A stretch of 64,000 bases of DNA, taken from assembly GCA_014925825.1 (NCBI GenBank), contig JACGCK010000201.1:16962-80961 (forward strand), written 5' to 3'. Both the position numbers and the translations under genes were made by a program. Positions 3,243 through 51,833 of this stretch are shown here, in pieces. Below the pieces are notes generated by a model. It was not told the DNA's origin, ran no database searches, and was given only the letters and a program-made list of their open reading frames with translations. Numbering within the stretch: position 1 is the first letter of the stretch; every line of letters begins with the position of its first letter. This DNA comes from Pholiota molesta. Taxonomy: Eukaryota > Basidiomycota > Agaricomycetes > Agaricales > Strophariaceae.

Positions 3243-3320
3243 GGTTAGGGGACATGCTCAGTATCAGCAACAGCCCTACAATCGTCCCCACTTAAAGCCT
3301 CAGCCTCACTCCAAGCAACG

Positions 3321-24208: not shown

Positions 24209-24388
24209 GGTGGTCGGAGGGAAAGAGAGCGCTGTCAATGCCACTAGCGCGTCTACAATATGTATTCCAGCTGAACTGTCAAACATCGGCAAATACCTGA
24301 CGTCGACGAATCACAGCCGGTATAATTAAAGTTATAGCCAAGTTGTTTATAGTTGACGAATTGCTGCCGAACTAAATTAGAACCAATA

Positions 24389-24403
24389 CTGTACTATTAC
24401 GAC
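24389..24403 (+). mobile_element. Left fragment of a TA-target MITE (split by the outer transposon)
   Basis: CTGTACTATTACGAC is the first 15 bases of a MITE whose remainder is at 51564-51831. The flanking TA (24387-24388) matches the TA after the right end (51832-51833). The last 8 bases here are duplicated at 51564-51571, showing that the 27-kb element inserted inside this TIR. Confidence 0.8.
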
Positions 24404-24434
24404 AGGACCCCGGACAATAGCATAAAAGGCTCGA
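24404..24434 (+). repeat. Left TIR of the 27-kb element
   Basis: Begins AGGACCCCGGACAATAGCAT and continues to GGCTCGA. It is inverted relative to 51533-51563, with one mismatch (A versus G at base 21). Confidence 0.85.
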
Positions 24435-24452
24435 TCCCAAAAAAAAAATTTA

Positions 24453-24584
24453 TGTCCGGACAAGCTCACCCAAAAATGCCCTGATTTGTCCGGAAAGTAT
24501 TGGGCCTACCCCAAATTTTCCCAGAAATGTCCGGATTTTGGGATCTGACCAAATTTTTGCTCAATTTCCGTTTTTCTGTCCGGA
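24453..24584. repeat. Left subterminal TGTCCGGA cluster (4 copies)
   Basis: TGTCCGGA at 24453, 24487, 24528 and 24577. Subterminal short repeats of this kind are commonly transposase-binding sites. Confidence 0.7.
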
Positions 24585-24733
24585 TTTTCAGATCCAGCCT
24601 CATAAGAGTGGCGAAAATGGGCGAGAGCGCTCCGTATATGCAAGAGTTGAGCACATTAGATTAGCAGAACTATGTAACATCATAATAAAACAACTTTTAA
24701 GCCAGAAAGACAAGCAGGTCAATAACTAAGTAA

Positions 24734-27700
24734 TCAGTCTTCGAGCCGTCGCTTCCTTGAATTTTTCAGCGCGACAGCAAGAGACCTTTCACCTCTTTTC
24801 AGATCCTGGTATCGATCCAGGTCCGTCTGGGAGATCTCGATGGTATGCTGGGAAGTGAAGGGGATCTTTGAATCCAGAAGGCACAACAGTTCGAATGACG
24901 GCGAATGTTGAAATCTGTAAGTCTGCAGATAAGCCATCGACCCCGGAATCGCACGAAATTGCCGCGCGAAAAAGTGCTCAAATATCTGGAATCCAACATA
25001 GGAGACAGCAGCGATACTTGATGACTCGGAGACAGCGCAGTGCTTTCCATTCTTGCCGCCAGTCTTTGAATATAAGGCACAAACTAGACGTGATAATCAG
25101 CAACTCGGATTGAAGCTATGCAAGAGATAATTCATTTATATACCTTGACCAAGCATGACACCGGAAGTTGTCCAAACAACAGCCCAATCCTTCAATTGTA
25201 ACGGACGAAGTACTGATATCCGAGCAGTTATGAGCTCGTTGAGTCGAGGTACGGCAGCATTCGTCAGAATTCGCTTGCGACGCACTGCAGCCTGTAGTGA
25301 GATATCTCAGCCACAATGCCGTAAAACAAGGAAGTACACAGCTCACCGCTTTGGCAACAGCATCAGCACTTACGGCGGCATTTGCTGAACTACCAGCTGC
25401 GAGATCTGGTGCTGCTATGCCTTCTATCAGCCCACCTCGTCCACCAGGCGCTGGGGCTCGCCACCTCTGCTGTCACTCCAAGCCAGTCCCAACAGCCGCC
25501 GTATCTTGAGCTTCCTTCAATGCGATGTGCATCTCACGCAGAATTTGAGTGCGTAGAGCTGTCGACGCGTCATCGTTTGTCGATTTCGAGAGCTTCGTGC
25601 GAACTCCTTGAGCAGCTTGCTTTGTTTGGTGCTGGCGCCGCATCTGAACAAGAAGATCGAAATCGAGCCTGTCAAAGCTAAGCGATCCGTGACCCGGGGC
25701 AGTCAAAGACGTTGCTTGATCAGGTAGATGGAGGGGAGGAAGTGGCTGCTTGAACCGGTTTGCTACTGCATGGACTTGTGAGTATTCATTAGCAATTACT
25801 TCCTCCAGCCTTTCGGAGTCGTCTGCATCTGCAAAGTTGTGGCTGAGAAGAGAGTATATCATTAGCTTGCAAGTACTGCGTTTACACGAAAAGAAATAAA
25901 GATTTGACGTACACACGAGTAGCTTCCTCAGCGGCCAACGCGAGTGCTGCGGAAGTAAGGCGCATGCATGTCTCATCAACCTTTTCGCTTCGAGACACTG
26001 GGCTGTCTTCTTCGCGATCCAATAATTCTTGCAATTCATCGGCGACGTTGGAGCTGGCATTATCATAAACAGATGAGTCATAATCAGAATCGTTGTCGTT
26101 GTCATTCAAACTGAGTGGTGGGGCCCATGCATCAATACTAGGGAAAGGAAGTGGGTGAGCTGGACTATGCAAGGCATCTGCTTGAACACCCAAGAGAGCG
26201 ATGAGACTGTCAGCCTCCTGGAATGCTTCTTGAGAAGCAACTTGAATTTCCGCATCACTCGGGAATGTCGATAGAATGACAAGATTGAGACCGTGATTAT
26301 CGAAGTATGTATGTGAGTACCCAGATGCTGTTGCTTTTGCATTCAATGATTTCCCTCGGAGAACGGCCTCATGAAGCTTGACTCGAAGCTTAGGGATCAT
26401 GTAGATAAAGTCCAGGAATGTGAAATCCTTGACAATGTCGCGAGATTCCCCAAAGACGTGCTCGCAAGGCTCACTTGAGTGAAGCCATGGCAGTAATGGT
26501 ACCTCGCCTTGAAGCTCGTCACGATATATGATGATCAGTGCGAGAAAACCTTCAATGACTATGTGAAGGATGTCGACAGCTTCACGAGACAGGAAGTATC
26601 GGTCCTGAGGGTAATTGTGTTTCTGGAGATAGAGTTGCCATGAGTTGAGGAAGTATCGAGCTCGCAGGACCATTTTCACGCGTTCAATGTGAGGAAGGCT
26701 TCGATTTTGGTACGCGTCAACCAATTCCCCAAAAACGAAGAGATAGACAATGTCGCCGACGTAGTTAGGGTGATGGTCCGACAGATATTTGAGTGCATCT
26801 GCCGAGAAAAGTCGAACTGCCGCGTTATCATCCTGTTGATCCAGATTTTCGACATCCCGCTTGTAGAGAGGAGTACCATCGCCACGAGCGAGTTCAAGAA
26901 TGTGTTGATACACCATTGTGAAATTGCCGAAAGTGAGTAAACGTGCGCCAGAGAAGAGGTTATTTCGCAAGGTCTTGAGAGCATGCTTTGAATCCTGAAT
27001 CATACAGATCACATGTTCTCGACAGATGCCATAGGTGACATGTGTATCGGATCCTGGTCGAGGACTCTTGACCGTGTATGTTCGCTGTTCGCATTGTGCA
27101 AGGAAAAGTCGTTGGACAGCGCGTTCGACCTCAGTTCCATCACAAGCATAGGATGAGATGTATATATTTCGGTCGAAAAGGCCATCAATGACTTTCGTGA
27201 GCAGGGAAACTAGTGTTGGAGCATCGAGACTTGTCATTGGAAGTGCGGCGACGATGATGGGACTGATTTTTGGAATGGGGAGTGTTAGGCACCAAACGCG
27301 AACCTGAAACATAGTCAAAAAAAAATCAGAGATTTATAAAGGTAGATATAAGGCGAAAATACCTTTGTTGCTTTCTCTGCCTTCGCAGTCTCAATCACTT
27401 CTTTAACACTCTCAGGATCCGTCACGCGCAATGGACCATCCGTTCCACCAGCCAAAAAGTAAGAATTCTTATCTGAGTCCCAATAAAGACAAAAAGTTGC
27501 AAATAGTTTTGTATCGTCGCAGGAGAGAGCCAGAGGTCCGTCATAATCAAGGGATTTGAGATGATCTTCAACGAGCTCAAAATTTCGCTCAGTTATTCCC
27601 ATGGGAAAGCGAGGCTGGCGGGCTTCCTTTCGTCTGAGATGCAAGTAGTCAAGTCAGAGCATGAATGTAAGGAAACATTGAGATGCACCGTAGACTGCGC

Positions 27701-28391
27701 TCATCGGGCATCGGAAAATACAGTCTGAGCAACTTATATGCACGCGGGCTTTGAATACGAATAATGTGGCACATTTCCTCCCATGCTGGGGCGTATTGAA
27801 AATTTTGCTTGCCAACACCACGCTCTTCACGGTCAAATTTCTGTACCATCGCCTCGACAAGGCCATTAAAGACTTCATTATTGTATGAGTCCTTCTTGTC
27901 TGGATTGATGGCGCCTTCAGCAAATCGAATATAAGGGTTCAACATCGGATTCTAGAGTGCAATAAGAACATGTTTCAACTCATACAAGAAACCAATGACT
28001 TACAGGATGCTCAAGGATTGCTTTTACTCCCACTGTACGTGCATATATCTTCCCAAGCCCATGGCTACGATAACGGTGATTTGTATAGATAAAATTCTCA
28101 TCCTTTGGGGTCGGGCGGCGAAGAGCATTCTTGAAAAGCTTGCTCTTGAAGACTTGGGTACAGTCTGAGCATGGGCGGAGACGAGCAGGAGATGTGTCGA
28201 TTACGTTTTGTTGACAGGATACTGAGAAGACACGCAAATTCCCATGGTCGTTCTTCCATGTCCACTCAGCCATCTGTGTATCGAGTACGCGCTTCTTGTC
28301 TTTCTTCTTCTTCAATTTGCTGAACATCTTTGAAAACAGTTCTTTTGCAATGCCTGGTAATGACCTTCCACCTCCTCCTTGCACCGATGTG
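24734..28391 (-). pseudogene. C-terminal part of the Ulp1/P-element-like transposase gene
   Basis: Exons 28391-28004, 27951-27689, 27633-27363, 27303-25913, 25842-25347, 25291-25144 and 25083-24734 continue the gene that starts at 51213, on the far side of the 20.75-kb insertion. The exons near 27.6-26 kb have the order expected of a P-element/THAP9-type RNase-H fold: a first acidic site in LALSCDDTKL (about residue 924 of the rejoined protein), a second in SSYACDGTEVE (about 1029), the DSKHALKTLRNN helix that follows it in this family, and SEPCEHVFGES as a candidate catalytic Glu (about 1255). An in-frame TGA at 25475-25473 precedes a clearly coding continuation (RWRAPAPGGRGG, then KDWAVVWTTSG). 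The basic tail ends NSRKRRLED. The family call is inference from motif order; another RNase-H-fold transposase family remains possible. Confidence 0.7.
28384..28391. repeat. Target site duplication CCGATGTG, left copy
   Basis: Identical to 49144-49151 at the other end of the 20.75-kb insertion. Confidence 0.85.
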
Positions 28392-28413
28392 TAGGGATGC
28401 CGAAGTTCGGTTC
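28392..28413 (+). repeat. Left TIR of the 20.75-kb element
   Basis: 22 bp, exact inverted match to 49122-49143. Confidence 0.85.
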
Positions 28414-28554
28414 TGTTCGGTTCTCGACCCCTTCAGCCAGAACCGAGAACCGAACCAACAGAGAACCGACAGAACTGAGAACCGAACCGAAGCAGAACCG
28501 ACAGAATCGGTTCTGTCAGTTCTGTCCGGTTCTGGAACCGGTTCGAACTGATGA

Positions 28555-29640
28555 ACTGGCACAACGCGTCTCCACGCCGCACAGTGCTGCATATGCAGCA
28601 CTGATTGTACGTGTAGACGGTGAGTGTGCGTGGGTTGGAGTGGACGGCGCGAGTGCGAACACAAGCATGAACGCACCGCGCATGGATGACGCGGCATGCC
28701 GCCAGCGCCTCGTCTGTCCGCAACTCCGGCTTAGACTGTTGCATTCACAGTCCACCCGCATCGCGTCCTGCGCGGGACGACGTGGCGCGGGTGCGCCCGG
28801 TGGGTAGCCGTCGTCGTCGTGTGCGGGCATCGCCGCAGTCCACCCGCATCGCGTCCTGCGCGGGACGATGTGGTGCGGGTGCGGCCGGTGGGTAGCCGTC
28901 GTCGTCGTGTGCGAGCATCGCGGAACGACGTGGCGGGCGCGTGACGGGTGGGCAGGGGTGTTCGTGTGCCGCCGGATGACATGGTGGGCTGGGGGGGCAT
29001 TGTCGTGGTGTGCAAGCAGCACGGTGGATGATCGACATGCATGGGATGGAGCCACGAGAGGGCGGGCTCGTTGGCGGGCGATGCGTCGAACAGAGGTGCG
29101 AGGGTCAGCACCTCCACCGCGCCATACGCCACCACCATCCGCGCGAGCGTCTGCGTGATGTCCTCGACCGCACAGCGGCGGCGGGGGCACGTCGAATGCG
29201 AGGCTAACAAGCGGCGGTGGCTGCGGCTCCTCGTCGCCGTGCAAGGAAGCTGTGGGTAGGGAATGAGTGTCAGTGGCGAGCGAGGATGAAGGGCGTAGGG
29301 GGCGTACTGGTGGGTCTCCCACTCCCGGGGCTCCCCTTCCATTCCTACATTCCTTCGTCCATCGTCGTGGCGGGCGTCGTCGCGGCACAATGTGGCGGGT
29401 GGTGGGGTGGACGCGGTGCATGCGTGGGCGATGTGGTGGGCGGGTGACGTGGCGGGGGTCCGTCGACGTGGTTGGCGTCGTGGGCATCGTTGAAGGCTGT
29501 ATGTTGATGGTTGAAGTTCGATCAACAAACAGTCGATGCCGCATTTCGGCAAATGCCGTCACGTGCCGTGTTGGCGCCGTGCGCCAATTCTCGCCGGTTC
29601 TTAATGCGTTCGACATATCTCATGCAGTTCTGGGCCATTA
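28555..29640. repeat. GC-rich low-complexity segment with tandem ~88-bp units
   Basis: Two near-identical units (about 28745-28832 and 28833-28920) share CCACCCGCATCGCGTCCTGC and GGTGGGTAGCCGTCGTCGTC. Degenerate GGCGGG/GTCGTCG motifs continue to about 29480. Long open frames occur on both strands but are compositional. The segment has no counterpart at the right end of the element. It is followed at about 29690-29705 by a second, imperfect terminal-like sequence (GGTTCGGGCATCTCCA). Confidence 0.6.
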
Positions 29641-29838
29641 TATCTGAAAATTTCAGCATATGAAGCTCGGTTCAAACCGGTTCGAACTCGGTTCGGGCAT
29701 CTCCAGGATCCTCAGAACCGAGAACCGAACTGTACAGGCCAGTCTGTAGTTCCAATGGATTCACCTGTTATAACAATAAGCTATAAGGTGATGGATAAAG
29801 CCCAGCAAGTACAAGGGATGGATTCCCTACTGTACTGC

Positions 29839-29982
29839 TGTTGGAATTTATGAGCTTAGCGGTTAGCGTAGCACGTGACGTAGTTACCTGTAGGCACATT
29901 TTGGTTTCCTTTCTCTTCACTCAATTACTACGGCGTTCCCGCAATCCCACCTCGCAGCGACGCGACCCGACGAATTCCAACA
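29839..29982 (+). repeat. 5' LTR
   Basis: 144 bp with TG...CA ends. It is followed by TAATTGAGTGATACCC, where a primer-binding site would lie; the primer tRNA was not identified. Confidence 0.88.
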
Positions 29983-30054
29983 TAATTGAGTGATACCCGG
30001 TGGGGTATTGAAGAATACACGCTTGACGGCTCGCTCTCACGCCGTCTGAAGTCC

Positions 30055-30205
30055 TCTCTCACGGGGCACCTCGGAAGCCGCTTCACAGCGCACTCGGAAG
30101 CCGCCAGCTAGGCGCAAACTCGGAAGTCGCCAGTCAGGCGCACCCTCGGAAGCCGCCAGCCAGGCGCACACCCCCGGAAGTCGCTCCCCAGCGCAGAAAT
30201 TTGAA
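30055..30205 (+). repeat. Leader tandem repeat of the LTR element
   Basis: About five imperfect ~30-bp units of the form CTCGGAAGCCGCCAGCYAGG followed by CGCA, between the 5' LTR and gag. The function is unknown; it could be a packaging or dimerisation region. Confidence 0.6.
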
Positions 30206-30237
30206 GTCTCCGACATTGTCCGGAGCACGTGACCGCG

Positions 30238-31056
30238 ATGTCGTCCACGAAGGATTCGAAGCGTATCGCGAAGCTCGGTAACGACAACTACTATGCGTGG
30301 TCGTACCGGATGGAAATGCGGCTCCGCAAAATGCAAGTCTGGTCGCTCGTCGATGGAACGGAGAGTCGTCCGGATGGTTCGGATAGATCGAAGGTGGTGA
30401 AGGCTTGGAGCACCCGGATGGATTTGGCGCTCAGCGAGATCGTTTGTGAGGTCGAGGATGGGCAGTTGGTGCATACGCGGATCTCGAGGGATCCGGCAGT
30501 GGTTTGGGCGAGGCTGGAGTCGATCCATCTCTCGCAGGGTCTCGGAAGCGCCATTTCGACATGGCAGAAGCTCTTCCTGATGAAGAAGAACTCGACGACC
30601 TCGATCCAGGAGCACGCCGGCAAGATTCGCGAGCTCGCCGACCGTCTCACCCACCTCGATGACACACCCTCCGACTCACTCCTCGTTGCCGTCCTCATGC
30701 TTTCCCTCCCTCCTTCCTACTCTTCCCTCATCATCTCCCTCGACTCTCACTCCAGCAAGAACGATTTCGATTTTGTTGTCCAACGCTGCATGAATGAAGA
30801 AGCTCGACAGGCCGGGGTGGAAGCCACCAAGCAGGCTGAGCACGAAAACCGTAACGAAGCTTTCCTCACCGATGCGAAACCCCGACGCGATCGAAAAGAT
30901 ATCACTTGTTTCAAGTGTGGCAAGAAGGGCCACTATCGTAACGAATGTCCCGAAACGGACGAGAAGGCGAAGGCTGAAGAACCTGCCAGTGCGCAGACAG
31001 TGACTCTGAAGATGAAGGAGAAGGAGGAGGATGAGATCTTCACTGCGGTATGGTAG
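30238..31056 (+). CDS. Copia-type Gag polyprotein with CCHC zinc knuckle
   Basis: A single uninterrupted frame of 272 aa starting at ATG 30238 (MSSTKDSKRIAKLGNDNYYAW). The N-terminus has the YYAWSYRME pattern of Copia gag proteins. The middle is a UBN2/gag-like helical region (DPAVVWARLESIHLSQGLGS and LPPSYSSLIISLDS). The C-terminus has one zinc knuckle, CFKCGKKGHYRNEC (CX2CX4HX4C), followed by an acidic tail. Gag forms the virus-like particle that packages the RNA. The frame ends 97 bp before the 3' LTR with no pol downstream, so this is a gag-only element. The frame is intact and the LTRs match, so the insertion is recent. Confidence 0.9.
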   Translation: MSSTKDSKRIAKLGNDNYYAWSYRMEMRLRKMQVWSLVDGTESRPDGSDRSKVVKAWSTRMDLALSEIVCEVEDGQLVHTRISRDPAVVWARLESIHLSQGLGSAISTWQKLFLMKKNSTTSIQEHAGKIRELADRLTHLDDTPSDSLLVAVLMLSLPPSYSSLIISLDSHSSKNDFDFVVQRCMNEEARQAGVEATKQAEHENRNEAFLTDAKPRRDRKDITCFKCGKKGHYRNECPETDEKAKAEEPASAQTVTLKMKEKEEDEIFTAVW

Positions 31057-31153
31057 TCTCACGTTTGAGGGGGTACATTTAGGTTTTGTTATATTCTTTT
31101 TATTTCTCTTACTTTATTTCGATGATCCCTGCCCGCTTGCGCTCGAGGGGGTA

Positions 31154-31297
31154 TGTTGGAATTTATGAGCTTAGCGGTTAGCGTAGCACGTGACGTAGTT
31201 ACCTGTAGGCACATTTTGGTTTCCTTTCTCTTCACTCAATTACTACGGCGTTCCCGCAATCCCACCTCGCAGCGACGCGACCCGACGAATTCCAACA
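31154..31297 (+). repeat. 3' LTR
   Basis: 144 bp, no difference from the 5' LTR seen by eye. Confidence 0.88.
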
Positions 31298-33574
31298 ACT
31301 GCTGCTAGCCGATGGATGCGGCTCCATTCTGCTATCCATCCAGCTGTCCCCTCCGCGCTTGCACGTGCGCGCACGTGCCCGTATCCATCCATCTCACTCC
31401 ATTGCACACGCATTGCACCTCCATCCTCCTGCCCATATCCATTGCCCGACTTGAGTTGCGGCGCGTCGTCCCGCCTGGCGGGCGCCGCATCCATTACGCC
31501 AAAATCCATTGCCCATCTTGGGCGCTGCTCCATCCTCCTGCCCACGCCCTGCATCCATTGCGCCACGATCCATCCTCCCACCCACGCCCCGCATCCATTA
31601 CGCCACGCCCGCATCCATTGCCCGACTTGGGTTGCGGCGCGTCGTCCCACCTGGGCCCCGCATCCATTGCCGCCCGCATCCATTGCCCGACTTGGGTTGC
31701 GGCGCGTCGTCCCACCTGGGCCCCGCATCCATTGCCGCCCGCATCCATTGCCCGACTTGGGTTGCGGCGCGTCGTCCCACCTGGGCCCCGCATCCATTGC
31801 CGCCCGCATCCATTGCCCGACTTGGGTTGCAGCGCGTCGTCCCACCTGGGCCCCGCATCCATTGCCGCCCGCATCCATTGCCCGACTTGGGTTGCGGCGC
31901 GTCGTCCCACCTGGGCCCCGCATCCATTGCCCGACTTGGGTTGCGGCGCGTCGTCCCACCTGGGCCCCACATCCATTGCCGCCTGCATCCATTGCCCGAC
32001 TTGGGTTGCAGCGCGTCGTCCCACCTGGGCCCCGCATCCATTGCCGCCCGCATCCATTGCCCGTCTTGGGTGATGTTCCATCCTTGTGCCCACGCCCCGC
32101 ATCCATTGCGCCATCCATCCTCGCGCCCACGCCCCGCATCCATTACGCCACGTACGCATCCATTGCCCGAATTGGGTTGCGGCGCGTTGTCCCACCTGGG
32201 CCCCGCATCCATTGCCGCCCGCATCCATTGCCCGACTTGGGTTGCGGCGCGTCGTCCCACCTGGGCCCCGCATCCATTGCCGCCCGCATCCATTGCCCGT
32301 CTTGGGTGATGTTCCATCCTTGTGCCCACGCCCCGCATCCATTGCGCCATCCATCCTCGCGCCCACGCCCCGCATCCTTTACGCCACGTACGCATCCATT
32401 GCCCGAATTGGGTTGCGGCGCGTCGTCCCACCTGGGCCCCGCATCCATTGCCCGTCTTGGGTGATGTTCCATCCTCCTGCCCACGCCCTGCATCCATTGC
32501 GCCATCCATCCTCGCGCCCACGCCCCGCATCCATTATGCCACGTACGCATCTATTGCCCGAATTGGGTTGCGGCGCGTTGCCCCGCCTGGGCGCCACATC
32601 CATTGCGGCACGCATCCATTGCCCGACTTGGGTTGCGGCACGTCGTCCCACCTGGGCCCCGCATCCATTGCCGCCCGCATCCATTGCCCGTCTTGGGTGT
32701 GGTTCGAGTTCGATCCTCGCGCCTGGGCCCCATGTGCGTATCCATCCTGACTCCATTGTCCATAAACTGACTACACCCATATAGAGCTTCCTCTCCTTGC
32801 CGTGGTAGGAACTGCGGCTCGGATGATGTCAATCAGCCTATGCCCTAGCTTCACACATCCATTGGCCATGTAGGACACGTCATCCATCGTGCGTGGCCGC
32901 CCTACCTCCCCACATCCATCCCCCCTCTGATCACGAATCCAATCACTCAATACGGCGCGCAATCCAATGCGCACGGCCCCTGCCCATCACATATCCATTG
33001 CCCATATCCCGCACCCCATCCAGTGCACTGGACCGCGACTTGCGTTATCACCGCTCCTCTTGCGACTTTGATTCGCATCCATCCCATTCCCATCACCCAT
33101 CCATAGACCATATACTGCGCCCAATCCATTCTTGCCATTGTATCCATCCTTCTTCCATCATACATCCATCATCCATATGTTTTCCTTAAACGGCTTGAAT
33201 CATGCCTGTCTGCCGCGCCTTTGATTTGTATCCATCCCATCTGTACCCATCCCCCTCCCACGCGCTGTACCGCGGCACTTGGTGCCCCGCTCCGGATGTA
33301 TTGCAATCCATATAATTTGCGCTTCCCATTCCGGACATATGTAGATTATACCACTTATCATGTACCTTGCACACACCACCTTTCCAAGAAATATAAATAT
33401 AATATTGAACAAGATAATAAGAGCCACGAATTACACATAAGAGAACATAAACAGAGTACAAGATCAGATAGCCAGGAAAATAATATGGCAAGATACATAC
33501 GGCAAGATAGATAATGAATAACAAGATAACGATAAAGCAAACTGATCACAAGAAATGTCACATAGAGACAATGA

Positions 33575-36134
33575 TTACCTTCGTTGTCTTTTGCCTTCAC
33601 CCAAATCCCCACTACCACTAACATCCTTTCGTTTCTTTCCACCCACCATGTAACTTTCGACACATGAATGTAAATCGACCACTGCCGACTCCCACCGAGC
33701 ATCAGTGGTACGGGCTGAAGCCCACCATGCGAGGCTGGCGATGACAACAACTAACCCACTAGCGCCGTGCTTCCTCAGCATACAGACATCTTCATTCGGC
33801 TTTGCAGACGACAAGGGCAGAGGGAGGGTGTTGGGGACTGTGGAGCGCCTCCATGTTGGCTGGATGCTATTCCACCACGAGACCCACTCGTCGGCGAATA
33901 CTTGAACATCTGGAAGCGATGGTATTTGGTCATATCTACGCTTTTGGATCCAGTTTGAGAGTAAACCCGGGCGCAACGCAGCAGGCATGCGGTGCTGAGA
34001 GAGGGAACATTAACCACCGAGCAAGGTTCATTAGACACAAAAATACTTACTGCCGTTGTAGTTATAGCACCGTGTTCACTTTCGAACTTGATCCAGTCTG
34101 CGACGAATGTTTTCCAGATATCCGAGTCGACCGCTTCAGTGAGATATTTCGACGCATCCTCGAGCCATGGTGGAACAACCGATTTGACTGATCTCACCCG
34201 CGTAGATCGATCAGTTCGGCCTTCGGGAGTGGCCACATCCTCGTCGCTAGCTGCATTTGGAGCGGGCTGGGTTTGTGGGGCGAGAGCGTCTACGGAATGG
34301 TTTGAGATGTTGTTACCAAAGCCACGAGGCAGCTGCGTGCCGGCTGCTGCTGCTGCTGAAAGTCCAATTACAGATCCAATGGTAGGCATGGGAGGGGCGC
34401 CAAATGGAATGGCCAGGTGAACAGAAGCCATCGGCACGATATCGCCAGCGGCTTGAGTAATCGATGGATTGACCAGTGCGACTGTCCCAGTATCCGTTTC
34501 CAAAGAGGGCGTGCCATATGGGTTGAGATACGGGGTAGTCGCATGGGCTACGGGATATGTAGGCATTCCTAGGCACAAACTATCAGTCCGAAAGAATCAG
34601 TAAATGGACACAACTACGCACCGCTGGTGCTCGCCGCATTCTCAGCATTCCAGTCACCTCCATCCATACCATTGGATGTGTCTCCATCTAAGCGCATCCA
34701 ATCAGTAGTCCCTAGGATTTGAGACACTTCTTCATCGGTCATGCCAGCCGTTGGATCACGAACCTGCCCAACTGGCAAGGTTTTGAACAACCCCTGAGGT
34801 CCTGTTCCAGTCAGCCCGTCCGAGTTCCTGCCCGGAGCATCACCGATGGATTCGACGGGAGCATTGCCAAAGCCGTCAACAGGAGGCGAAACGATGGACG
34901 AGGAGTTCGTGGAGGTGTGGGAGTCGGAAGAGCCACCAACCAGAGGATCAACGAGGGATAAAGCAGGAGACACCGGGGAAGCCTGGCCGCAAGGCGAGTC
35001 ACTGTCTCCATGAGCATCCTTGTCCGATTCTTCATCACCGGGGGCTGGTAGAGCGCCGGCCTTTGGGGCATCACCGGGGGTAGCAGGTAGTAGAGCGCGG
35101 GACTGTCGTATCTCTTCCGCTATATGTAATTGATATATTTTAGTTCAACAAAGTAAGTATACACAGCTAAAGGAAACCTTACGATAGCAGGCATGCAAAA
35201 AGTCCGAGAAAGGACGGAGAACTCTCGTCTCATAGTGTGGAAATGCTTCTCCAAAGGACAGGGAACACGGGTTCCGACGAGAGTGCAAACTACATGTGAA
35301 GATGTCACCTTGAGCGTGGCGAGGATCGGGTCCACCAGCGAGCAGAGTAAATGACCATCCTGTCAATATTGATAGCTGTTGCATGAAATCGTCCGCTAAT
35401 TCAGGAATCTTGCCGATCGAGCTGAAAATCGAGATCAGAGTATGTTTTAAAAATAGTCAATCGGGCCTACAGCAAATATTCCTCCGGAGTGCGTTCAAGA
35501 GACTTGGCTTCCAAACAAGCAACCTCGCGATCCATCTCCGCCCTACGCTCTTCCCGCAGACGTTTGACTTCGGCTTTGACCTCTTCCGACTCATTCAGAT
35601 AGGCTTCTTGAGTGAGTTTATTCACAACCGACAGACGCATTTTGGAATCCACGCTCAGGGGATCGAGGTCCACCAAGGGCTTGACTCGATCCTTGAAGAA
35701 CACCTTCGAATAGATGTTCTTCTCAGACGGGAGACGGCTGGTTGTCGCGGTGGCATTGATCACCACTTTTTCTTTGGCAGTGCGATTGCGTTGACCGATA
35801 GGATGGTTATTAAACCAAATCTTGATTTTCTATAAATCCAATAGTTAGAATATGACAAACGCAATAAATAATCCAAACACACCTTTTTACGATCGAATGC
35901 CCACTCCTCAGTGGTCTGGAAAGGTAGTTGGACAATAATCTGAGGATCTGAGGAACTTGCAATTCCAGCCGCCTCGGCCGCTTGAGACGGCCACTGCTGG
36001 AAGAAAAGTCGGTAGCATTCAGTCCTCCAATCGCGAAGAGCATTGGCCCCGGCCTGTTTTGCGGCAAAATGCTCGGCACGTTTAGACATGAGAAATTCAT
36101 GCTGTTGGTTGGTGGCCCAAGACTTTGGCGCCAT
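33575..36134 (-). CDS. KDZ-element accessory protein with N-terminal WFNN motif (basidiomycete-specific)
   Basis: Six exons: 36134-35883, 35829-35471, 35421-35183, 35119-34622, 34568-34051 and 33994-33575. All are in phase and give 761 aa. The N-terminus is basic and helical and ends in a homeodomain-like KIKIWFNNHP segment split by intron 1. A charged helical region follows, then a compact block with ILTGWSFTLLAGGPDP, a low-complexity Pro/Ser/Gly linker, and a C-terminal block with LAWWA, WVSWWNSIQPTWR and a basic tail. This layout recurs in large families of uncharacterised Agaricomycete proteins. DNA binding by the N-terminus is plausible but unproven. It is divergent from the hybrid-binding-domain gene, and the 409-bp gap likely holds a shared promoter. 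The frame is intact, unlike the KDZ gene of the same element. Confidence 0.8.
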
Positions 36135-41087: not shown

Positions 41088-41221
41088 GTGCACGCCTTCC
41101 TGGTGCATGCAACTGCTATGTAGTTCTCGTCTGCAATGAATGTCCGTCTAGAAAATGTCTGATAAAAATGTACCGTGCTTGTTCATCTATGAAATATATT
41201 GCTTGTGCCCTCGACTTCCCT

Positions 41222-41896: not shown

Positions 41897-42336
41897 GAGC
41901 GTTAGTGAGCAAGGATATAGAAATCGTGTTTGCCTTCGATGCAATCCGGTGCGTCGTCTGACTTTTATTTCTGGCAACTAGACTACTGCTCCAAATAGTA
42001 TCAACAGAAAGGTAATAATCCAAAGGCTCTGATTCTGATTTTATTACTCTGTTTGAATCATCCTACAATATATGCAGCATTTATTCTTTTATTTTCTGTC
42101 TTGGTCTGTGCGCACCAGGGCGGACTTAGTAATCTCGAGAAGCCAGAGAACCTGAGAATCTGGATGGGCAGTGGATGGGTCGCCTTATTTCCCCCCCCCT
42201 CTCTAACTCGAACCATATTTTTTCGCCCTGCCAAATCCTCTTTCCGTGTTGCAGCAACTGAAAACTCAGAATTTCTGCAGATGTGAGTACTTATTTTTTT
42301 TTGGTCAGACGATGCTGACGGCATCGCTAAGATTAG

Positions 42337-43119
42337 ATGTTGAACCTGGTGCAGCCTGACGCGAACCCAGCCGAAATTCAAATTCAAATCGATAAACAGC
42401 GGTTTGTCCACCGCATGGGACCATACTATCTCCAAGCATATTCTGAGGGCACAGCACAGGAGGCCGAGTTCTTCCAAGCCGTCTTCCGCCACCACTGCGA
42501 TCGATGGCCGGTCAACGCCAAGGACTATCCGGATCTGGATTTCATGAAGGCCGACCTTGAGAACCAACGCAAGGTATGTGTGTTTATTCATTAACGATCT
42601 ATTCTTAATTATTATCTTTAGGCTTTGATTCGGTTGATTAAGAGCTGGGCTGGTTTGGGCGCCTTCGCTGCGGACAAACATTGGTCCGAGTTGTTCAAAC
42701 GTAAGGTTGTTTCGGACACTAGTGATTCGCTGAGCAAGGAGGCAAGAACCTTCACTGTTGTTTGAAAACAATGTTATATTGGGCTAATTTTCTTTACTAG
42801 AACCAGTTGTCTGAGGTAACCAAGGAAGCAAACGAGTCCGACTCTGTTGGTGGCTCCATGGACAATCCAATCGACGTGGTTAGTGTTGGTATATTACCCA
42901 TTTTCACAGCGCTAACACAATTACATATATAGGATCTTTTTGCATCTCCGGGGAGGAGCCGCATGAATCCAATCAAAATTGTAAGGTTCTGCGTGTTCTT
43001 CCCTCTGATTTGAGCTGACCTACTAGTAGGATGCGACTCCATCCAAAGAGAAGAGGGGGGACAACGATGCTAATCATGGCGGTAAAGTCAATCCACGCCA
43101 TATCAATGTATTCAAATGA
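42337..43119 (+). CDS. Hypothetical KDZ-element accessory protein
   Basis: Exons 42337-42573, 42622 to about 42705, 42801-42878, 42933-42980 and 43030-43119, about 157 aa. It starts MLNLVQPDANPAEIQIQIDK, continues through RMGPYYLQAYSEGTAQEAEFF and RLIKSWAGLGAFAADKHW, and ends in a Ser/Asp-rich tail (SVGGSMDNPIDV, then DLFASPGRSRMNPIKI). The donor of exon 2 is uncertain: the canonical GTAAGG at 42701 breaks the frame, while GTTGTT at 42706 keeps it. I do not recognise the family, though the N-terminal pattern recalls proteins I associate with mushroom mobile regions. The gene lies 230 bp upstream of, and in line with, the KDZ transposase. Confidence 0.6.
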
Positions 43120-43348
43120 GCAGCTTCCGGCCCAGTTTCTATCTCCTAGCACCGTAGGTAACGAAGTGAATACTGTACACAAGCATGCATCCGTCGACGA
43201 GTAGTGTACCATTTGTGTAGAATTTGTAAATTGTGTAGTTATCTGATGTATCGTCTAAGTACGTGTACATGTATTGGTAATCAGATGTATACATTTGAAT
43301 ATTGACCGTCGAATTTGAGATGATAGTACTTCAATAACTATTAACGAG

Positions 43349-46300
43349 ATGCCCCCGAAGAAACGACCTCCAATTATCATGGATGTGCTGGCCAAGCCCA
43401 AGCCAGCGCAGCTTAAGCCACCCAAGCGCGAGACCCAAGACCGTCTTGAACGTCACATTTCCTATGTCAATGGGGAAAACGTATCCAGTTCATTTATCTC
43501 TATCCCGCCCTCCCCTCCTCGCGGTGCTCGTACATTTCAGATGGAAGAGCCTGCATCAGGCCCTCGACTTTGTTTATCCCAAGAACTGAAGACGACATCG
43601 AACGTGTCGATGACGAGACTCGATTACTTGAGATCGAAGGTTTAGGGCATCTCTATGACGGCTGGTCGACACAAAATCCTCAGGAGCCCGATGAACTACC
43701 TCCCGATTCCATGCGCAAACGCAAATGAACGGATGCCGTGGGTTCTCATTTTCAAAATCAAACAATGTATTGACGCCTTTCCTAGGATAATCCACTCCTC
43801 CTTTGGGTGCCTTATATTGATAGATACGTCGAGGAATTGCTTCGACATGAAGGACGTGGGGACTCCACTGGTGCTGACAGCTGTGCAACTGTGGACTGTC
43901 TTTCCCCCCAGTCTATCGCTGCACGGACTGCCAAGATCCACGCATGTTCTGTGCTGCATGCATTGTCGCACAGCATCGAAGTCTGCCCTACCATCGTATT
44001 CAGGTATGTGTGGTGTCCGGTAACACAAATATATTGCTAATTTTATGCTATAGCTTTGGAATGGACACTTTTTCGAAAAGACCACACTTAAATCCCTTGG
44101 ATTGCGCGTGCAACTTGGTCATCCGCTCGGAACTGCATGTCCAGTCTCGGTGGTACCATACAATGATGAGTTTACTGTCATCGATTGCGATGGCATTCAT
44201 CAGATCTCTCTTCGCTTCTGCGGGTGCCAACATTCTCTCCATCACACTGTTCAATTACTTCGTGCCCGGCTTTTTCCATCAACCACAACCGATCCTCGGT
44301 CTGCAGCAACGTTTCGTGTACTTGAAACATTCCAAATGCTGAGCTTTACCTCGAAAATTTCCGCTTACGAATTTTATAAGGCCATAGAATCGAAGACAGA
44401 TAATACAGGAACATCCTCCCCACCAGTAGGCTCTTTCTTATTTCTTAAATTTCCATTAATTGACTTGTATTTTTTAGGATCGCTACCATGTTTTCTTACG
44501 GGTTGTTCGAGAATGGAGACATGTACGCTTACTAAAGCGCATGGGTCGGGGCCATTCCAGCTCGGGCGTCAAGGGTACTAAAGAAGGCGAATGCGCGGTA
44601 TTGTGCCCGGCGTGTCCACTTCCCGATATCAATCTACCTCCTGACTGGAAGATGAGGCCTAAATCAGAACAGTAAGACTTCGCTGTGATGTATCCAAGAA
44701 TTTTACTGATGGATGTGTACCTATTTTAGGTGGTTGGATATGCTTTTTGTGGCTATCGACGCGAACTTCCGTCTCAAGCGACTGAATGTGTCAAGCCATC
44801 AACGGGACCCAGGACTTAACCATGGGTACGCATATGTCGTTGAAGAAACCCGTTTCAAAGATTATCTTTCGAAGTTCGACACACGCATCGGTCAAGAGAA
44901 AAGTTCATGTGTGGATCACGATGCAATTAAAGCAGCGATGAAGCGGGGCGGAGAGGGTACAGCTGCAAATGGTACTGGCACAGCCGAATGTGGTCGTCAT
45001 GATATGAAACGGGCTAATGGTGTTGGTGATTTGCAGAAGGGTGAACGGTAAGCAAAGATTTGATATCATTCGTTGACATTGGGGGCTAATGATGAATTTG
45101 TAGCTACGTAAACATGGATTATTTCTTGCTGTCTAGTTTGAAGATCAATACTCCCCCCGGCTAGTCGTATCGTATGACATCGCTTGTCAATGGTCGCGCA
45201 ATCTGTCCAAACGTGTTCAACTCTATCCTCCGAACCCGCTTTCTGATGGTCAAATGAATGTGACCACCCTCGTCCCAAAATTTCATCTTCCAGCTCATGT
45301 CCTAGAATGTCAAACCAGTTTCTCTTTTAATCTGGTCCCTGGAGTCGGTAGAACAGATGGGGAGGCACCAGAACGGGGCTGGTCAGAGATTAATGCCGTC
45401 GCAACAAGCACGAAGGAAATGGGCCCTGGTTCGCGTCGCGATACATTAGACGATCATTTCGGTGCGCGAAATTGGCGGAAAATTACTCAAATTGGTAAGT
45501 TTAAGTGTTCCCGTATATTTCTTCCTCGCTCTAAGCCCGAAGGACCTTTTAGCACCTACATTTGCACGGAAAGCAGTGGAGGCTTTGGCAGGACGCGAGG
45601 AATATGTGGCAGCTTTCCTCGAGTTCGATGCCGCGCTTTCGATCAAAGTAGACGATGGCCTCGTTCATGCCATAGTTCCGACAGATGAATGGACGATAAT
45701 GTGTCAGAAATGGGAAGCAGATCGTGCGCGAAATCCTAATCCCTTTGCAGTTATAGAAACAGGTAAGTTTTGGATCGACTCATTTGAATTTCAGCTAATG
45801 TTAGATATAACAGTCATAGATGAAAAGGAAGTCCGTCTTCGACTGGCGCAAGCAGACGCCGCAGCGATTTCTAAAGGACAGTTTACGGCAATACATGATA
45901 CTATCTCGCCAAGTGTCCTTATCTGTCAAGGCCTTGAAATCGAAGATCTGCAGTGCGTATCCTTTCTCAATCCATCAAGTGCTTAAATTAAACATGTTTG
46001 TTATTAAGACGCAAGTTAGCCATTGATACAGCTGAACTAGGGCCTCATTCAACGGATCTACAGCGGGCGAAGATTCTTGAGTGATCGAACTTCCTACGTC
46101 GCAAGATTGAGGCGTGGTGTGAGATACAGCATCTCTATGTGCCCGCAGTTGCTGTCTTACGCGCTCATGCTGATTCAGATGGAGGGGGATCACTGGCCGT
46201 CCACGATTTGCAGCTTCACCTCCCCTCAAGTATCATAAACTCCGTGGCGTGCAACCCGCGACTCATCGAAGCAGAGTGGCAGCTGCGATACGCAATGGCA

Positions 46301-47055
46301 GACCACACACTCAATATGCTCCGATCACATCTCCTCCTTCGCACTCGTCTCTATAAATCGAAGGACAAAGAGTCGCGTGGGCAAGCAATGAATACTCGAA
46401 GTCAAACCTTGATTAAGAACATTGAACAGCGTATCCGTTCCTCTGCTGCAAAATATCGCTATGTGCGCCGTGCGATGGTCGCCCTTTCGGCTTCTCGTGG
46501 GGATGACTCAGATACCTGGCAGGTTACCTTTAAGGAGTTAGATGACGATCATGTTCGTGGATTAGCATCAATGGATAGCATAGGGAGAGGCGAGGGGCAC
46601 AGATCACTCTCGTGGATCTGGAAAGTACAAGGCGCAGGTGATGGAGTTGACGAGGGGACACAGGATGGTGAGTTATAATCTCAAGCTTTTTTTTCTACTC
46701 CTGATGAAGCGAGATAGCTCTTCGCATTGAATGGTGTCGAGCACGTGCACGTGCTCATCGTTGGCAAGAAGAGTGTCTCCTTCTCGCGGAGGAGATGAAA
46801 CGGGTTCAAGCATACTTTGCATGGCGAGCAAAGTGGTGGACAGAACTGTCATTGAACCCACCAATGATTGGTGTTGGCAAGTCAATCGTTCGCACAGACC
46901 AGGCAATTGTTGACGGAAAGCATGCCTATGCCCTGCGCCAGGCTGAAATTCAACAGAAGATACAAGATTTTTGTCAGTCGAAGTGGGTTGGTCTGTCAGA
47001 GAAGCTGTTGACGATGGATGGCAGAGATGCTAAGATAATGGTAGAAAGATCATAG
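43349..47055 (+). pseudogene. KDZ (Kyakuja-Dileera-Zisupton) transposase, with frame lesions
   Basis: The conserved KDZ order is visible. N-terminal: DNPLLLWVPYIDRYVEELLR, then a CxC-type cysteine cluster (YRCTDC, RMFCAACIVAQHRSLPYHRI). RNase-H core: AIDANFRLKRLNVS, EKSSCVDHDAI, GTGTAECGRHDMKRANGVGD, ERYVNMDYFLLSSL, RLVVSYDIACQW, VPKFHLPAHVLECQ, and ERGWSEINAVATSTKEMGPG. C-terminal: SWIWKVQG, EWCRARARAHRWQEE, and KRVQAYFAWRAKWW. By family, a DDE-type transposase of DNA transposons common in basidiomycetes. Lesions are an in-frame TGA before DNPLLLW (about 43728) and one-base frame breaks at C6 runs 43904-43909 and 45153-45158. Splice sites of the first 400 bp are uncertain. Stop at 47053-47055. 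Confidence 0.9.
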
Positions 47056-47149
47056 ATTGTAGAATATTTTGACATAGTGATATATACATGTGAACAATTA
47101 AATAAGACATCGTACAGGCTGCAGGTGATGGGATGGGTCGCAGCCGCAA

Positions 47150-49015
47150 GGGGGTATGAATGCACCGGATACAGATCGAAGTCGCGGGCGGACGGGCATG
47201 ATTCAAGCCGTGGTTCGTACCGCGGTACGGCGCATGGGGGGGATGGATTAAGGAAAATATATGTATGATGGATGCATGATGGGAGAAGGATGGATACATG
47301 ATAATGGCGATAATGGATCGGGCGTAGGATATGGTGTATGGATGGGGATGGAGATGAATGGAAGCTGCAGGAGAAGCATCGATAACGCAAGCCGCGGTGC
47401 TTACCGTGGCAGGATGAGGGGGAAATGGATGGCGAGTCGTATATGAACAATGGATGTGTAGTTTCAGAGTTGGCGGAGGTGTGCATGGAAGGCCTGGGCA
47501 GATCGATGTGATGCAACCTGCGGTCTGAACCACGGCAAGGGATGGTGGAGCGGGGCACGGCATGGGGCACGGGATATGGGCAATGAATACGTGATGGGCA
47601 GGGGCCGTGCGCATTGGATTGCGCGCCGTATTGAGTGATTGGATTCGTGATCAGAGGGGGGATGGATGTAGGGAGGTAGGGCGGCCACGCTCGATGGATG
47701 ACGTGTCCTACATGGCCAATGGATGTGTGAAGCTAAGGCGTAGGCTGATTGACATCATCCGAGCCGCGGTTCCTACCATGGCAAGGAGAGGAAGCTCTAT
47801 ATGGGTGTAGTCAGTTTATGGACAATGGAGTCAGGATGGATACGCACATGGGGCCCAGGCGCGAGGATCGAACTCGAACCACACCCAAGACGGGCAATGG
47901 ATGCGTGCCGCAATGGATGTGGCGCCCAGGCGGGGCAACGCACCGCAACCCAATTCGGGCAATGGATGCGTACGTGGCGTAATGGATGCGGGGCGTGGGC
48001 GCGAGGATGGATGGCGCAATGGATGCAGGGCGTGGGCAGGAGGATGGAACATCACCCAAGATGGGCAATGGATGCGGGGCCCAGGTGGGACGACGCGCCG
48101 CAACCCAATTAGGGCAATGGATGCGTACGTGGCGTAATGGATGCGGGGCGTGGGCGCGAGGATGGATGGCGCAATGGATGCGGGGCGTGGGCACAAGGAT
48201 GGAACATCACCCAAGACGGGCAATGGATGCGGGCGGCAATGGATGCGGGGCCCAGGTGGGACGACGCGCTGCAACCCAAGTCGGGCAATGGATGCAGGCG
48301 GCAATGGATGCGGGGCCCAGGTGGGACGACGCGCCGCAACCCAAGACGGGCAATGGATGCGGGCGGCAATGGATGCGGGGCCCAGGTGGGACGACGCGCT
48401 GCAACCCAAGTCGGGCAATGGATGTGGGCGGCAATGGATGCGGGGCCCAGGTGGGACGACGCGCCGCAACCCAAGTCGGGCAATGGATGCGGGCGGCAAT
48501 GGATGCGGGGCCCAGGTGGGACGACGCGCCGCAACCCAAGTCGGGCAATGGATGCGGGCGGCAATGGATGCGGGGCCCAGGTGGGACGACGCGCCGCAAC
48601 CCAAGTCGGGCAATGGATGCGGGCGTGGCGTAATGGATGCGGGGCGTGGGTGGGAGGATGGATCGTGGCGCAATGGATGCAGGGCGTGGGCAGGAGGATG
48701 GAGCAGCGCCCAAGATGGGCAATGGATTTTGGCGTAATGGATGCGGCGCCCGCCAGGCGGGACGACGCGCCGCAACTCAAGTCGGGCAATGGATATGGGC
48801 AGGAGGATGGAGGTGCAATGCGTGTGCAATGGAGTGAGATGGATGGATACGGGCACGTGCGCACACGTGCAAGCGCGGAGGGGACAGCTGGATGGATAGC
48901 AGAATGGAGCCGCATCCATCGGCTAGCAGCAGTACAGTAGGGAATCCATCCCTTGTACTTGCTGGGCTTTATCCATCACCTTATAGCTTATTGTTATAAC
49001 AGGTGAATCCATTGG
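47150..49015 (-). repeat. Right arm of the long inverted repeat
   Basis: Inverted counterpart of 29752-33250. It holds the same 65-bp array (about 47880-48790) and the unoccupied version of the LTR-element insertion site near 48925-48935, with a single GCAGT (ACTGC on the other strand). The inner end fades into diverged sequence near 47150. Confidence 0.8.
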
Positions 49016-49121
49016 CCATGCAGCATCTGGTGAACTGTAGGCCAAGATACCAGAACCAGAACCGGACTGAACCAGAACCGTCGGTCCGGTTCGACCGGTT
49101 CCGGTTCTCTGCGCCAGTTCG

Positions 49122-49143
49122 GAACCGAACTTCGGCATCCCTA
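49122..49143 (-). repeat. Right TIR of the 20.75-kb element
   Basis: Reads CTTCGGCATCCCTA into the CCGATGTG duplication. Confidence 0.85.
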
Positions 49144-49151
49144 CCGATGTG
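49144..49151. repeat. Target site duplication CCGATGTG, right copy
   Basis: Directly follows the right TIR. Collapsing the pair restores the interrupted reading frame. Confidence 0.85.
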
Positions 49152-51213
49152 CGCCTGAGATACTGACTAACACGCACATCATCCGCATCGGTGATTCCTG
49201 GACATGGTGCATATTTCAATTTTTCAGGCTTCTTCTCGTTCTTTTTCCCAACACCGAAACCCATTGAAAATAGAGTATATGACCCGCTTTTGGCTTTACA
49301 TTCCTCCAGACAGTGCGTCTTCCATCGTCCAGTATTGTAGGGCTCCTTCATCAGGCGCCACTTCCCGCATTTCGAATGTCGCACACGACAAACATCCTCT
49401 GGGTCGAATACAGCCTTCGGATCGATGGCGAGTACCTTCTGCTTGAAAAGGTCGTAACTCTTCGGATCGATCACTAATGTGCCTTCAGAATGTTCCTGCC
49501 GTTTTTTACATGAGTAGATGGCAGACCTGCTGGTGCCTTCAACATGACCCCCATCGCCAACCTCACGATGCAGCTCCGCACTGGACGAACTGAAGTAGCT
49601 GTCATCCGAGGCGTCTCCGTCATCGAATGCAGCTGACTCTTCAGCCTGCAGGACGCGTTTTCCGTTTTCGTTGATACAGATTTCAACAGCTTGGATCGAG
49701 TTCGATGGGCCGTCTTCAGTCTCACCATCCGACTCAGAATAGTATTCGGTTGGGGGTAGGGTAGTCGTGGGAGGAAGGGGATTCAACAAGTTTGCAAACG
49801 ACATCCGTGAGTTCGCTTTCACCTCTTCCTTTACACCTTCTGATACATCTGGCAGCAACTCGTCCTCGAGCATTGGTACTTCTCGGGGTGTGCATGATGC
49901 GAAACGGATAAACCAGGCTAACCGGCTGTCGACAGCAGTATTTTGCTCCCAAAGAGGTGTGTTGAAAACCGCATGAGAGATCGTGTTAATGGCTATGATT
50001 CCGCAGGAATAGCTATCGTTCTGTAGGGCATGGGCTAAGGTATTTCCATCGACAGGAAACTTCTTGCCAAAAACTGATTTGAGCCATAACTGCAGGCAGT
50101 TGATAAACTTCATCGGTGCTCCAGAGGACTTGCCGTGGGCATGCAGCGAATCACCTTTGAAGCAAAGGGTCAACCACCGTCAGTCGCGTTCGATTTCACG
50201 ATGTCATTCAACTCACCAAAAGCAATCTGTTTCCTTTGGAAATCAACTAATCCAGCAACCCAATGGTTCGCATTGACATGTAGTGGAAAGTACAACTTCT
50301 CCAGCCGACCTTCTTTGGCGCTAACTTCGTACTGGCGGAAAGCTGTCGTCTTCCTGAGTGTCGTTGCAGCCTTGGCGTCGCTGATCTTGCCGATTTGATT
50401 TGCGAACGACAGCGATGCGATTTCGATGTGCTGTGCTGTTTCACCGAGATCGGTGGACTTTTGACGGACGAGCGCCTCAATCATCATATCGACATGGTTG
50501 TCAGATAACCATAACGTCCCCAATAGACGTGCGAGTTCGATGGTCGAAAGGTATTGATTGAGAGCCTTCATCCCCGAGTCCCATTCTAATGTCTTGAGTA
50601 GGTTTAAGGTGGCCAGAAGCAAGTCCTTCCGCTCCATACTACAACTGGGCCTTCTCTGCTCATTTTCGATCCATCGCAGGGCACTCATCCACTTCTTCTG
50701 TTTCTCAGACAGAGTGCTGATATATTTCCAGTAGGTGATCGCCCATAGTGGAAGTCAGTCTTGGCCATTGTTGAAACGAGGGTCAATGACAGATTTTGCA
50801 CCATCTAGCCAAGCCTGTCCAAGGTGGTCTCGAAGATTGTCGATGAATGTGCTTGTTGGTATGAGCCGGGTAAGCAAAATGCTCGGATCTATGGTCGGTA
50901 TGTCCTTGCTGAACCATGTCTTTGGCGCAGTGACTGTGATTTCTGACGGAATTCGGGGGAGTTCAATATCGATAATGTCTGAGACATGAACATCTGGAGA
51001 TGGTAATCTTGCTGCATCCAGAATGTTTGCTGGTATTGCGATTCTCTTGTCAAATTCCGAGAGAACAAAGTAGGGTAATTTCATGGTGTCGTATATCTTT
51101 CCCATACCAATCCATTGTTGATCATCGAAGACTTCTGGGATATCTGGGTCAAGGTCGTCAAGCATGGATCTGAGGCTTTCTGGGTGGAAAAACAAGGCAG
51201 ATGTTTGCGGCAT
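49152..51213 (-). pseudogene. N-terminal part of the Ulp1/P-element-like transposase gene (Ulp1-like protease domain)
   Basis: Exons 51213-50217 and 50154-49152; the reading frame then continues at 28391. A C48 (Ulp1/SENP-type) cysteine protease core is visible: His in NANHWVAGL (about residue 317), an acidic residue at about 324, Gln 377 in LQNDSYSCG, and nucleophile Cys 383. The 62-nt intron at 50155-50216 falls between QIAFG and DSLHAHG. Downstream is an acidic, Ser-rich linker. One in-frame TGA (50757-50755) interrupts an otherwise continuous frame (FNNGQD before it, LPLWAITYWKYIS after it). With one TSD copy removed, the total from start to stop is 5,307 nt, exactly 1,769 codons. Ulp1 domains cleave SUMO-like modifiers; their use in a transposase protein is not settled. 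Confidence 0.75.
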
Positions 51214-51385
51214 TGCCTGTTTCGCACCGGAATGGCATACAAATTTTTTCGCTTAAGTGGTGCTCTATTTACAAGATGGTCCGATGGATGTGTTTTTCCA
51301 CAATGCAATAGTGTAGTGGTTACAGTAGGTAGCCCTTGTACAATATAGTCGCTTGTTCGATCCCTCCTCCAGACTTGTCAATTTT
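51214..51385 (+). other. tRNA-like A-box/B-box module within the 27-kb element's end
   Basis: Between the transposase start codon and the right subterminal repeats, TAGTGTAGTGGTTA (about 51312-51325) matches a pol III A box and TTGTTCGATCCC (about 51352-51363) a B box, at a tRNA-like spacing. The flanks do not form an acceptor stem, so this is not a functional tRNA gene. It may be a tRNA-derived promoter or SINE scrap. Confidence 0.4.
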
Positions 51386-51526
51386 TGTCCGGACCGAGGA
51401 TCAGACTAGAAAACCTGGGACAGACATTTGTCCGGACGACGGATCCTACTTGACCCAAAATTTGGCCCATTTTTGTCCGGACTGGCGTCCGGCCTTAAGG
51501 GTCAAATTGGCCAAAATCTGTCCGGA
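51386..51526. repeat. Right subterminal TGTCCGGA cluster (4 copies)
   Basis: TGTCCGGA at 51386, 51429, 51474 and 51519, mirroring the cluster at the other end of the element. Confidence 0.7.
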
Positions 51527-51532
51527 ATGGTG

Positions 51533-51563
51533 TCGAGCCTTTCATGCTATTGTCCGGGGTCCT
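51533..51563 (-). repeat. Right TIR of the 27-kb element
   Basis: Ends GTCCGGGGTCCT, immediately followed by the ATTACGAC target duplication. Confidence 0.85.
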
Positions 51564-51831
51564 ATTACGACCCCATGTTCACGTAACGCGTAACGCAGGG
51601 GTCAAAATGAACTTAGGTGCCAAAATGTAACGCGTAACAACCACAAATGAACATGAGTTAGAAATTTTTGCAAATTTTTTCGTCCATTTTTGCCCAAATT
51701 GAGGGAGATATGAACTAATTTTCGGATTTTTTTTGGTCTGTAACCCTCAAAAAAAAATTATGAACATGTATACCAGTGAACTTAGTGTGTAACGCGTAAC
51801 ATGGTGTGAACATAAGGTCGTAATAGTACAG
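51564..51831 (+). mobile_element. Right fragment of the TA-target MITE
   Basis: Its right end is the inverted complement of the left end: CTGTACTATTACGACC, two mismatching bases, then ATGTTCAC (26 bp in all). The interior is A+T-rich with inverted TAACGCGTAAC motifs and no coding potential. The rebuilt length is 275 bp with TA duplication, as in Tc1/mariner-type non-autonomous elements. The family is inferred from the TSD only. Confidence 0.8.
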
Positions 51832-51833
51832 TA

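Follow-up and report, generated by a model that had tools for sequence, protein, structure and literature searches.

Six transposable elements nested on five levels in a contig of the fungus Pholiota molesta

Within a 64,000-nucleotide stretch of the Pholiota molesta genome (assembly GCA_014925825.1, contig JACGCK010000201.1, positions 16,962 to 80,961 of the forward strand; hereafter the window, in whose numbering positions are given) we found six transposable elements on five levels, each inside another, and we hold with high confidence that the nest is genuine. The outermost is a miniature inverted-repeat transposable element flanked by TA (the TA-MITE). Proceeding inward, it is very probable that the order is TA-MITE, an element whose predicted protein joins a Ulp1 peptidase to a P-like transposase (the Ulp1/P-like element), a small hAT-like element, a Kyakuja-like KDZ transposon and, both within the last, a foldback element and a long terminal repeat (LTR) element that carries gag only. 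Which of these two entered the KDZ transposon first cannot be told. An earlier note on this DNA had recognized the nesting, the foldback and the gag-only LTR element, all of which were upheld, and the four target site duplications (TSDs) that it named, together with the TA pair, proved exact. Its count of four levels and five elements became five levels and six elements, the KDZ transposon having been credited with the termini and TSD that belong to a smaller element, which it had entered.

The genome scanned comprises 65.6 Mb in 625 contigs, the window lying on contig C115, and copies of the elements elsewhere in the same genome share the terminal bases of the window elements. In the printed flanks of other copies, TSDs stood at both ends of two of two copies of the Ulp1/P-like element (8 bp), two of two of the hAT-like element (8 bp), two of two of the gag-only LTR element (5 bp) and three of three of the MITE (TA). 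Each of the five inner insertions is backed by an empty site, a restored reading frame or a restored protein domain.

The missed level came from positions 28392-49143, which the earlier note took for a single 20.75-kb KDZ transposon, bounded by inverted TAGGGATGCC repeats with an 8-bp TSD, in a stack of four levels. The case for that view is that these ends and the TSD CCGATGTG (28384-28391 and 49144-49151) are exact and enclose the KDZ gene. When the genome was searched with the left terminus of what had been taken for the KDZ element, 87 matches emerged (the best 40 of 135 candidates were scored). In a genome scan the 17-base terminal sequence occurred 26 times and its reversed pattern not once; the occurrences resolved into 12 inverted pairs, with two left unpaired. 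Ten of the 12 pairs are only 1,358-1,605 bp apart, the window pair spanning 20,752 bp and a pair on contig C624 spanning 5,325 bp. Moreover, in the copy on contig C257 the left part of the element runs straight into the right end. C257 reads through CCGAACTGTAGGCCAAG; in the window AACTGTA stands there in duplicate, its two copies separated by 19,298 bp that run from CAGG to GGTG, and the KDZ part has in it a 7-bp TSD of its own inside the 8-bp one. Upon subtraction of the KDZ transposon, window and C257 agreed at 97.7% over a gap-free 1,003 bp across the site and, for another 442 bp, again at 97.7%. An 88-bp tandem repeat is one unit shorter in C257. As the end pairs are mostly short and C257 reads through, we assign these ends, together with CCGATGTG, to a small element of 1,447 bp. 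A single 20.75-kb KDZ element, to which we give scarcely any credence, is contradicted by the C257 empty site and the end-pair spans. On the matter of whether family copies end at other bases, which the earlier note had raised, the outer ends held; the copies nonetheless place the KDZ transposon outside that family.

Short deletion derivatives that retain both ends are common among DNA transposons, and short copies of the Ulp1/P-like element on contigs C4 and C457 look to be of this kind. By analogy, the 1.4-kb copies could have arisen from a large KDZ element by internal deletion. We consider this highly improbable, as the C257 joint has exactly one AACTGTA versus two in the window, directly at the CA..TG ends, a comparable joint is found in the C78 copy (about 70-86% identical, in pieces), and the 12 pairs, of which the C257 and C78 interiors were read, yielded no further KDZ copy sharing the outer ends.

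The small element, distinct from the KDZ transposon, thus lies in two parts, 28392-29734 on the left and 49040-49143 on the right, with inverted repeats TAGGGATGCCGAAG (also written TAGGGATGCC). Transposons of the hAT superfamily of the Ac type make 8-bp TSDs, and Ac ends begin TAGGGATG. The level-3 element is alike in its TSD (8 bp in three of three copies: window, C257 and C78) and in ends beginning TAGGGATG, and differs in being 1.45 kb in length. The hAT transposase profile PF05699 had 51 genome matches, none of which fell within the 12 end pairs when the lists were compared by eye. Hence, since the 8-bp TSDs and the Ac-type ends come without a hAT transposase in any pair, we use the label hAT-like only. 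Two other loci bear on this family. The C624 copy (L047, 141551-146875) holds a foldback whose start lies 163 bp inside the left end, and on contig C400 (13832-16264) a KDZ match is in two pieces (13832-14017 and 15644-16264) with a hAT-like end pair (14147-15604) between them, an arrangement that reads as the reverse nesting of a hAT-like element inside a KDZ gene.

The KDZ transposon (29735-49032, plus strand) has the TSD AACTGTA at 29728-29734 and 49033-49039, begins CAGG and ends GGTG. It is 19,298 bp long as it stands and 14,171 bp net of its own inserts. The transposase region (44054-45688, plus strand) consists of a CxC2 domain at 44054-44581 (Pfam E 2.3e-43) and the KDZ domain (PF18758) at 45137-45688 (E 2.2e-37); taken by themselves, the two domains point to a fungal source, probably an Agaricomycete. 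The KDZ domain had 128 matches in the genome, often several per gene, an abundance like that in Marasmius oreades, where KDZ elements are a large share of the DNA transposons according to the available part of the source (PMC8290104). Further open frames lie at 33186-36203 (minus strand) and 41225-42783. They may be cargo genes or may be open by chance, and in those that were scanned no Pfam family exceeded the cut-off.

The ends of the KDZ transposon are CA..TG without outer inverted repeats, 10 of the 17 outermost bases being different, and inverted copies begin at base 18 and run inward. When the LTR element was subtracted, 186 of the next 187 positions inward were the same in the left and right arms. 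The left subterminal array (29752-33026, interrupted by the LTR element) contains 27 copies of GCATCCATTG, that is, CAATGGATGC on the minus strand, and its mirror image on the right (47555-49015) contains 19 copies of CAATGGATGC on the plus strand. Both arrays are built of 65-bp repeats, and CAATGGATGC occurs nowhere else in the window. We infer that the arrays are putative transposase-binding sites. The arms at 31298-31931 and 48300-48933 differ at three of 634 positions, deeper parts of the arrays being 95-97% alike, and recent homogenisation is possible.

Kyakuja elements of Agaricomycotina are described in the available part of Kojima (2025; PMC12730594) as having a 7-bp TSD and CA..TG termini whose outermost bases form no inverted repeats, and the families treated there were chosen for carrying TET. 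The window element is alike in its KDZ-domain transposase, 7-bp TSD and CA..TG ends. It differs from the elements of that part of the source in that its contig has no Tet_JBP match and in its inverted subterminal arrays from base 18. The main text of the paper contains neither the word subterminal nor the term tandem repeat. The Tet_JBP profile had five genome matches, none on the contig of the window, and is one that distant TET types would escape.

The Ulp1/P-like element, in which the hAT-like element lies, is 6,400 bp in net length and is made up of a left part (24404-28391) and a right part (49152-51563) with ends AGGACCCCGGACAATAGCAT. Its TSD ATTACGAC is exact (24396-24403 and 51564-51571). 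The left kilobase had nine genome matches, the window's one included, and the C4 and C457 copies have the same first base and 8-bp TSDs, AATCAAGG and TCTACACG. These two (L003 and L002, respectively) are the short copies mentioned above, in which about 870 bp of left end and 215 bp of right end stand between 8-bp TSDs; they look like non-autonomous derivatives.

The gene of this element (25473-51213, minus strand) is split by the level-3 insertion. The spliced model encodes 1,560 residues with one in-frame stop (50755-50757), and within it a 479-residue frame was restored once 28392-49151 was subtracted. The earlier note's designation of the protein as Ulp1-P-like stood in its Ulp1 half, as the model contains Peptidase_C48 (E 1.8e-10) and matches yeast Ulp1 (E 2.8e-6). 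A paralogue on contig C113 has an uninterrupted 1,396-residue frame that is 35% identical along the model, with an alignment unbroken at the insertion site, and thus the protease-like and transposase parts are one protein there. In the alignment, the His, Asp and Cys residues of the Ulp1 part in the window are matched by the same residues in this paralogue. However, a Pfam scan of the paralogue found no family, the Peptidase_C48 and P models included, and a search of solved structures with its N-terminal part found no protease.

The P half of the designation is plausible but unproven. The P-transposase model PF12017 scored below its cut-off (E 0.048, 14.5 bits versus 23), and a second, PF21787 (E 0.13), appeared in only one of 14 members. 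Because these models fall below cut-off the element is labelled P-like, a label with moderate support only, and not filed as a member of the P superfamily. The 8-bp TSD expected of that superfamily was found in three of three copies (window, C4 and C457) but is also shared with other superfamilies. Foldseek searches for a P-like fold with two predicted models, the first of them poor (predicted local distance difference test score 48.1), gave no match at E<=0.001, and solved structures searched by sequence and by profile held nothing relevant. The level-2 protein differs from the Drosophila P element (PDB 6pe2 and 6p5a) in its N-terminal Ulp1 peptidase and in its sub-cut-off scores with the Pfam P models. 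A literature search pairing P element transposase with Ulp1 returned only work on HUH endonucleases.

The TA-MITE that encloses the stack is 279 bp long with both TA copies counted. Its 5' part occupies 24387-24403 (TA at 24387-24388) and its remainder 51572-51833 (TA at 51832-51833). The rejoined parts matched an uninterrupted copy on contig C2 at 99.3% over 279 of 279 positions without gaps. The MITE query had 38 matches in the genome, and in the three other copies that were read TA flanks both sides.

At the innermost level, the gag-only LTR element (29839-31297, plus strand) is 1,459 bp long and has identical 144-bp LTRs and an exact TSD, ACTGC (29834-29838 and 31298-31302). Its one long open frame (30205-31056, plus strand) encodes a 283-residue Gag (Retrotran_gag_2, E 7e-30; zf-CCHC, E 3.5e-6), and pol is absent. 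Upon its subtraction the insertion site agreed with the mirror arm of the KDZ transposon. The LTR-gag query had 23 genome matches, two of them near full length besides that of the window, and these two copies (C79 and C444) have the TSDs CTAGG and TCCCG, so that the TSD was 5 bp in three of three. Gag-only LTR elements are known as TR-GAG, to which this one is alike in its two LTRs, 5-bp TSD and Copia-type gag frame; no difference was noted.

The foldback (37187-40841; 3,655 bp) is a near-complete palindrome, aligning to itself at 92% over positions 7-3649, with the exact TSD GCATTTTC at 37179-37186 and 40842-40849. It splits a gene borne by the KDZ transposon (36893-41087, plus strand). Subtraction of the foldback and a short intron gave an RNase H1 N-terminal (Cauli_VI) domain (profile positions 2-44, E 9.7e-12). 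The right half alone gave a match below cut-off (profile 20-44, E 0.0028) and the left half alone no domain match. The earlier note had described two interrupted host genes; both do become continuous after subtraction, and both are transposon genes and not host genes.

Foldback elements are long near-complete palindromes of many copies, and the window's element is alike in these respects. It differs in having CA..TG ends that resemble Kyakuja ends. The foldback query had 42 genome matches (the best 40 of 192 candidates were scored), and in eight further foldbacks whose two ends were both read the TSD is 7 bp long in three and 8 bp long in two. Each foldback end resembles a different Kyakuja end at nine of 12 bases, whereas equally good matches number only 24 and 38 among the 8,805 CA-starting 12-mers of the window. 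The foldback end pattern had at least 103 genome matches versus eight for the reversed pattern and, among the matches listed, related foldback-type ends on C2, C22, C127 and C175 are homologous from CA inward, the C127 end lying 8.7 kb from a KDZ gene. We infer that the foldbacks of this genome are moved by Kyakuja-type enzymes. That the foldback is instead a hAT-type element unrelated to Kyakuja is a serious contender, if somewhat short of an even chance. In its favor, three of the six exact TSDs read are of 8 bp, that of the window among them, and no foldback-ended element with a KDZ gene inside was traced end to end. The 7-bp TSDs of the other three, the CA..TG ends, the matches of both ends to different Kyakuja ends, uncommon among window 12-mers, and the C127 end near a KDZ gene argue for the Kyakuja connection. 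We also considered that foldbacks and LTR copies might favor KDZ elements; a comparison by eye of the foldback list (the best 40 of 192 candidates) with the KDZ matches revealed no clear pattern.

It is very likely that a series of ordinary transposition events, one after another, left the stack. The 6.4-kb element with 8-bp TSDs, which encodes a Ulp1 peptidase and a P-like transposase joined in one protein, would have entered the 279-bp TA-MITE, and the 1.45-kb non-autonomous hAT-like element would then have landed in the Ulp1/P-like gene. A KDZ transposon of about 14 kb and of the Kyakuja type, with its 7-bp TSD and CA..TG ends, would next have entered the hAT-like element and would itself have received the foldback and the gag-only LTR element. 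Every piece may have been mobilised by its own enzyme or by that of a relative. Several points weigh against this account. The KDZ ends rest on one empty site, that of C257, because a genome search found no other copy of the right-end DNA. The KDZ element is read as Kyakuja-like by its KDZ domain, TSD and ends rather than by a tree against Zisupton and Dileera. The support from empty sites, frames and domains covers the five inner insertions and not the MITE itself, and three of the eight other foldbacks had no exact TSD. Finally, some of the junctions may be assembly joins. An assembly artefact as the source of the whole nest could appeal to the 625 contigs of the assembly and to the KDZ arms, which are long near-identical repeats with three mismatches in 634 bases. 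We consider it exceedingly improbable, as chance joins do not produce exact TSDs at family-specific ends and as subtraction restores frames and one domain.

A Pfam scan of ten open frames lying outside the nest produced a single weak match, that of frame 14019-15407 (minus strand) to SKN1/KRE6 (27.8 bits versus a cut-off of 30); this frame is perhaps a host gene.

Nested insertions in fungi are of a known kind, and this locus is a tidy example of something common there. What it adds is a set of corrected boundaries, a candidate fusion of Ulp1 with a P-like transposase, and the mirror-image arrays of repeats, densely packed close to the ends of the KDZ element. The stack yields a relative order for most of the six insertions, with readable boundaries. 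It also illustrates that the ends of a host element can be taken for the guest's own; a library of transposons made from this locus alone would hold a false 20.75-kb KDZ element with the wrong ends and TSD. A tentative joint reading, which we consider possible although the odds are against it, is that the level-2 element represents a fungal branch of the P superfamily having a Ulp1-fused transposase, with the window protein and the uninterrupted C113 paralogue as its examples, that the CAATGGATGC arrays are ends bound by Kyakuja transposase, and that foldbacks are palindromes moved by Kyakuja enzymes. For the Kyakuja family, the mirror-image arrays suggest where the transposase might bind, a hypothesis open to test.

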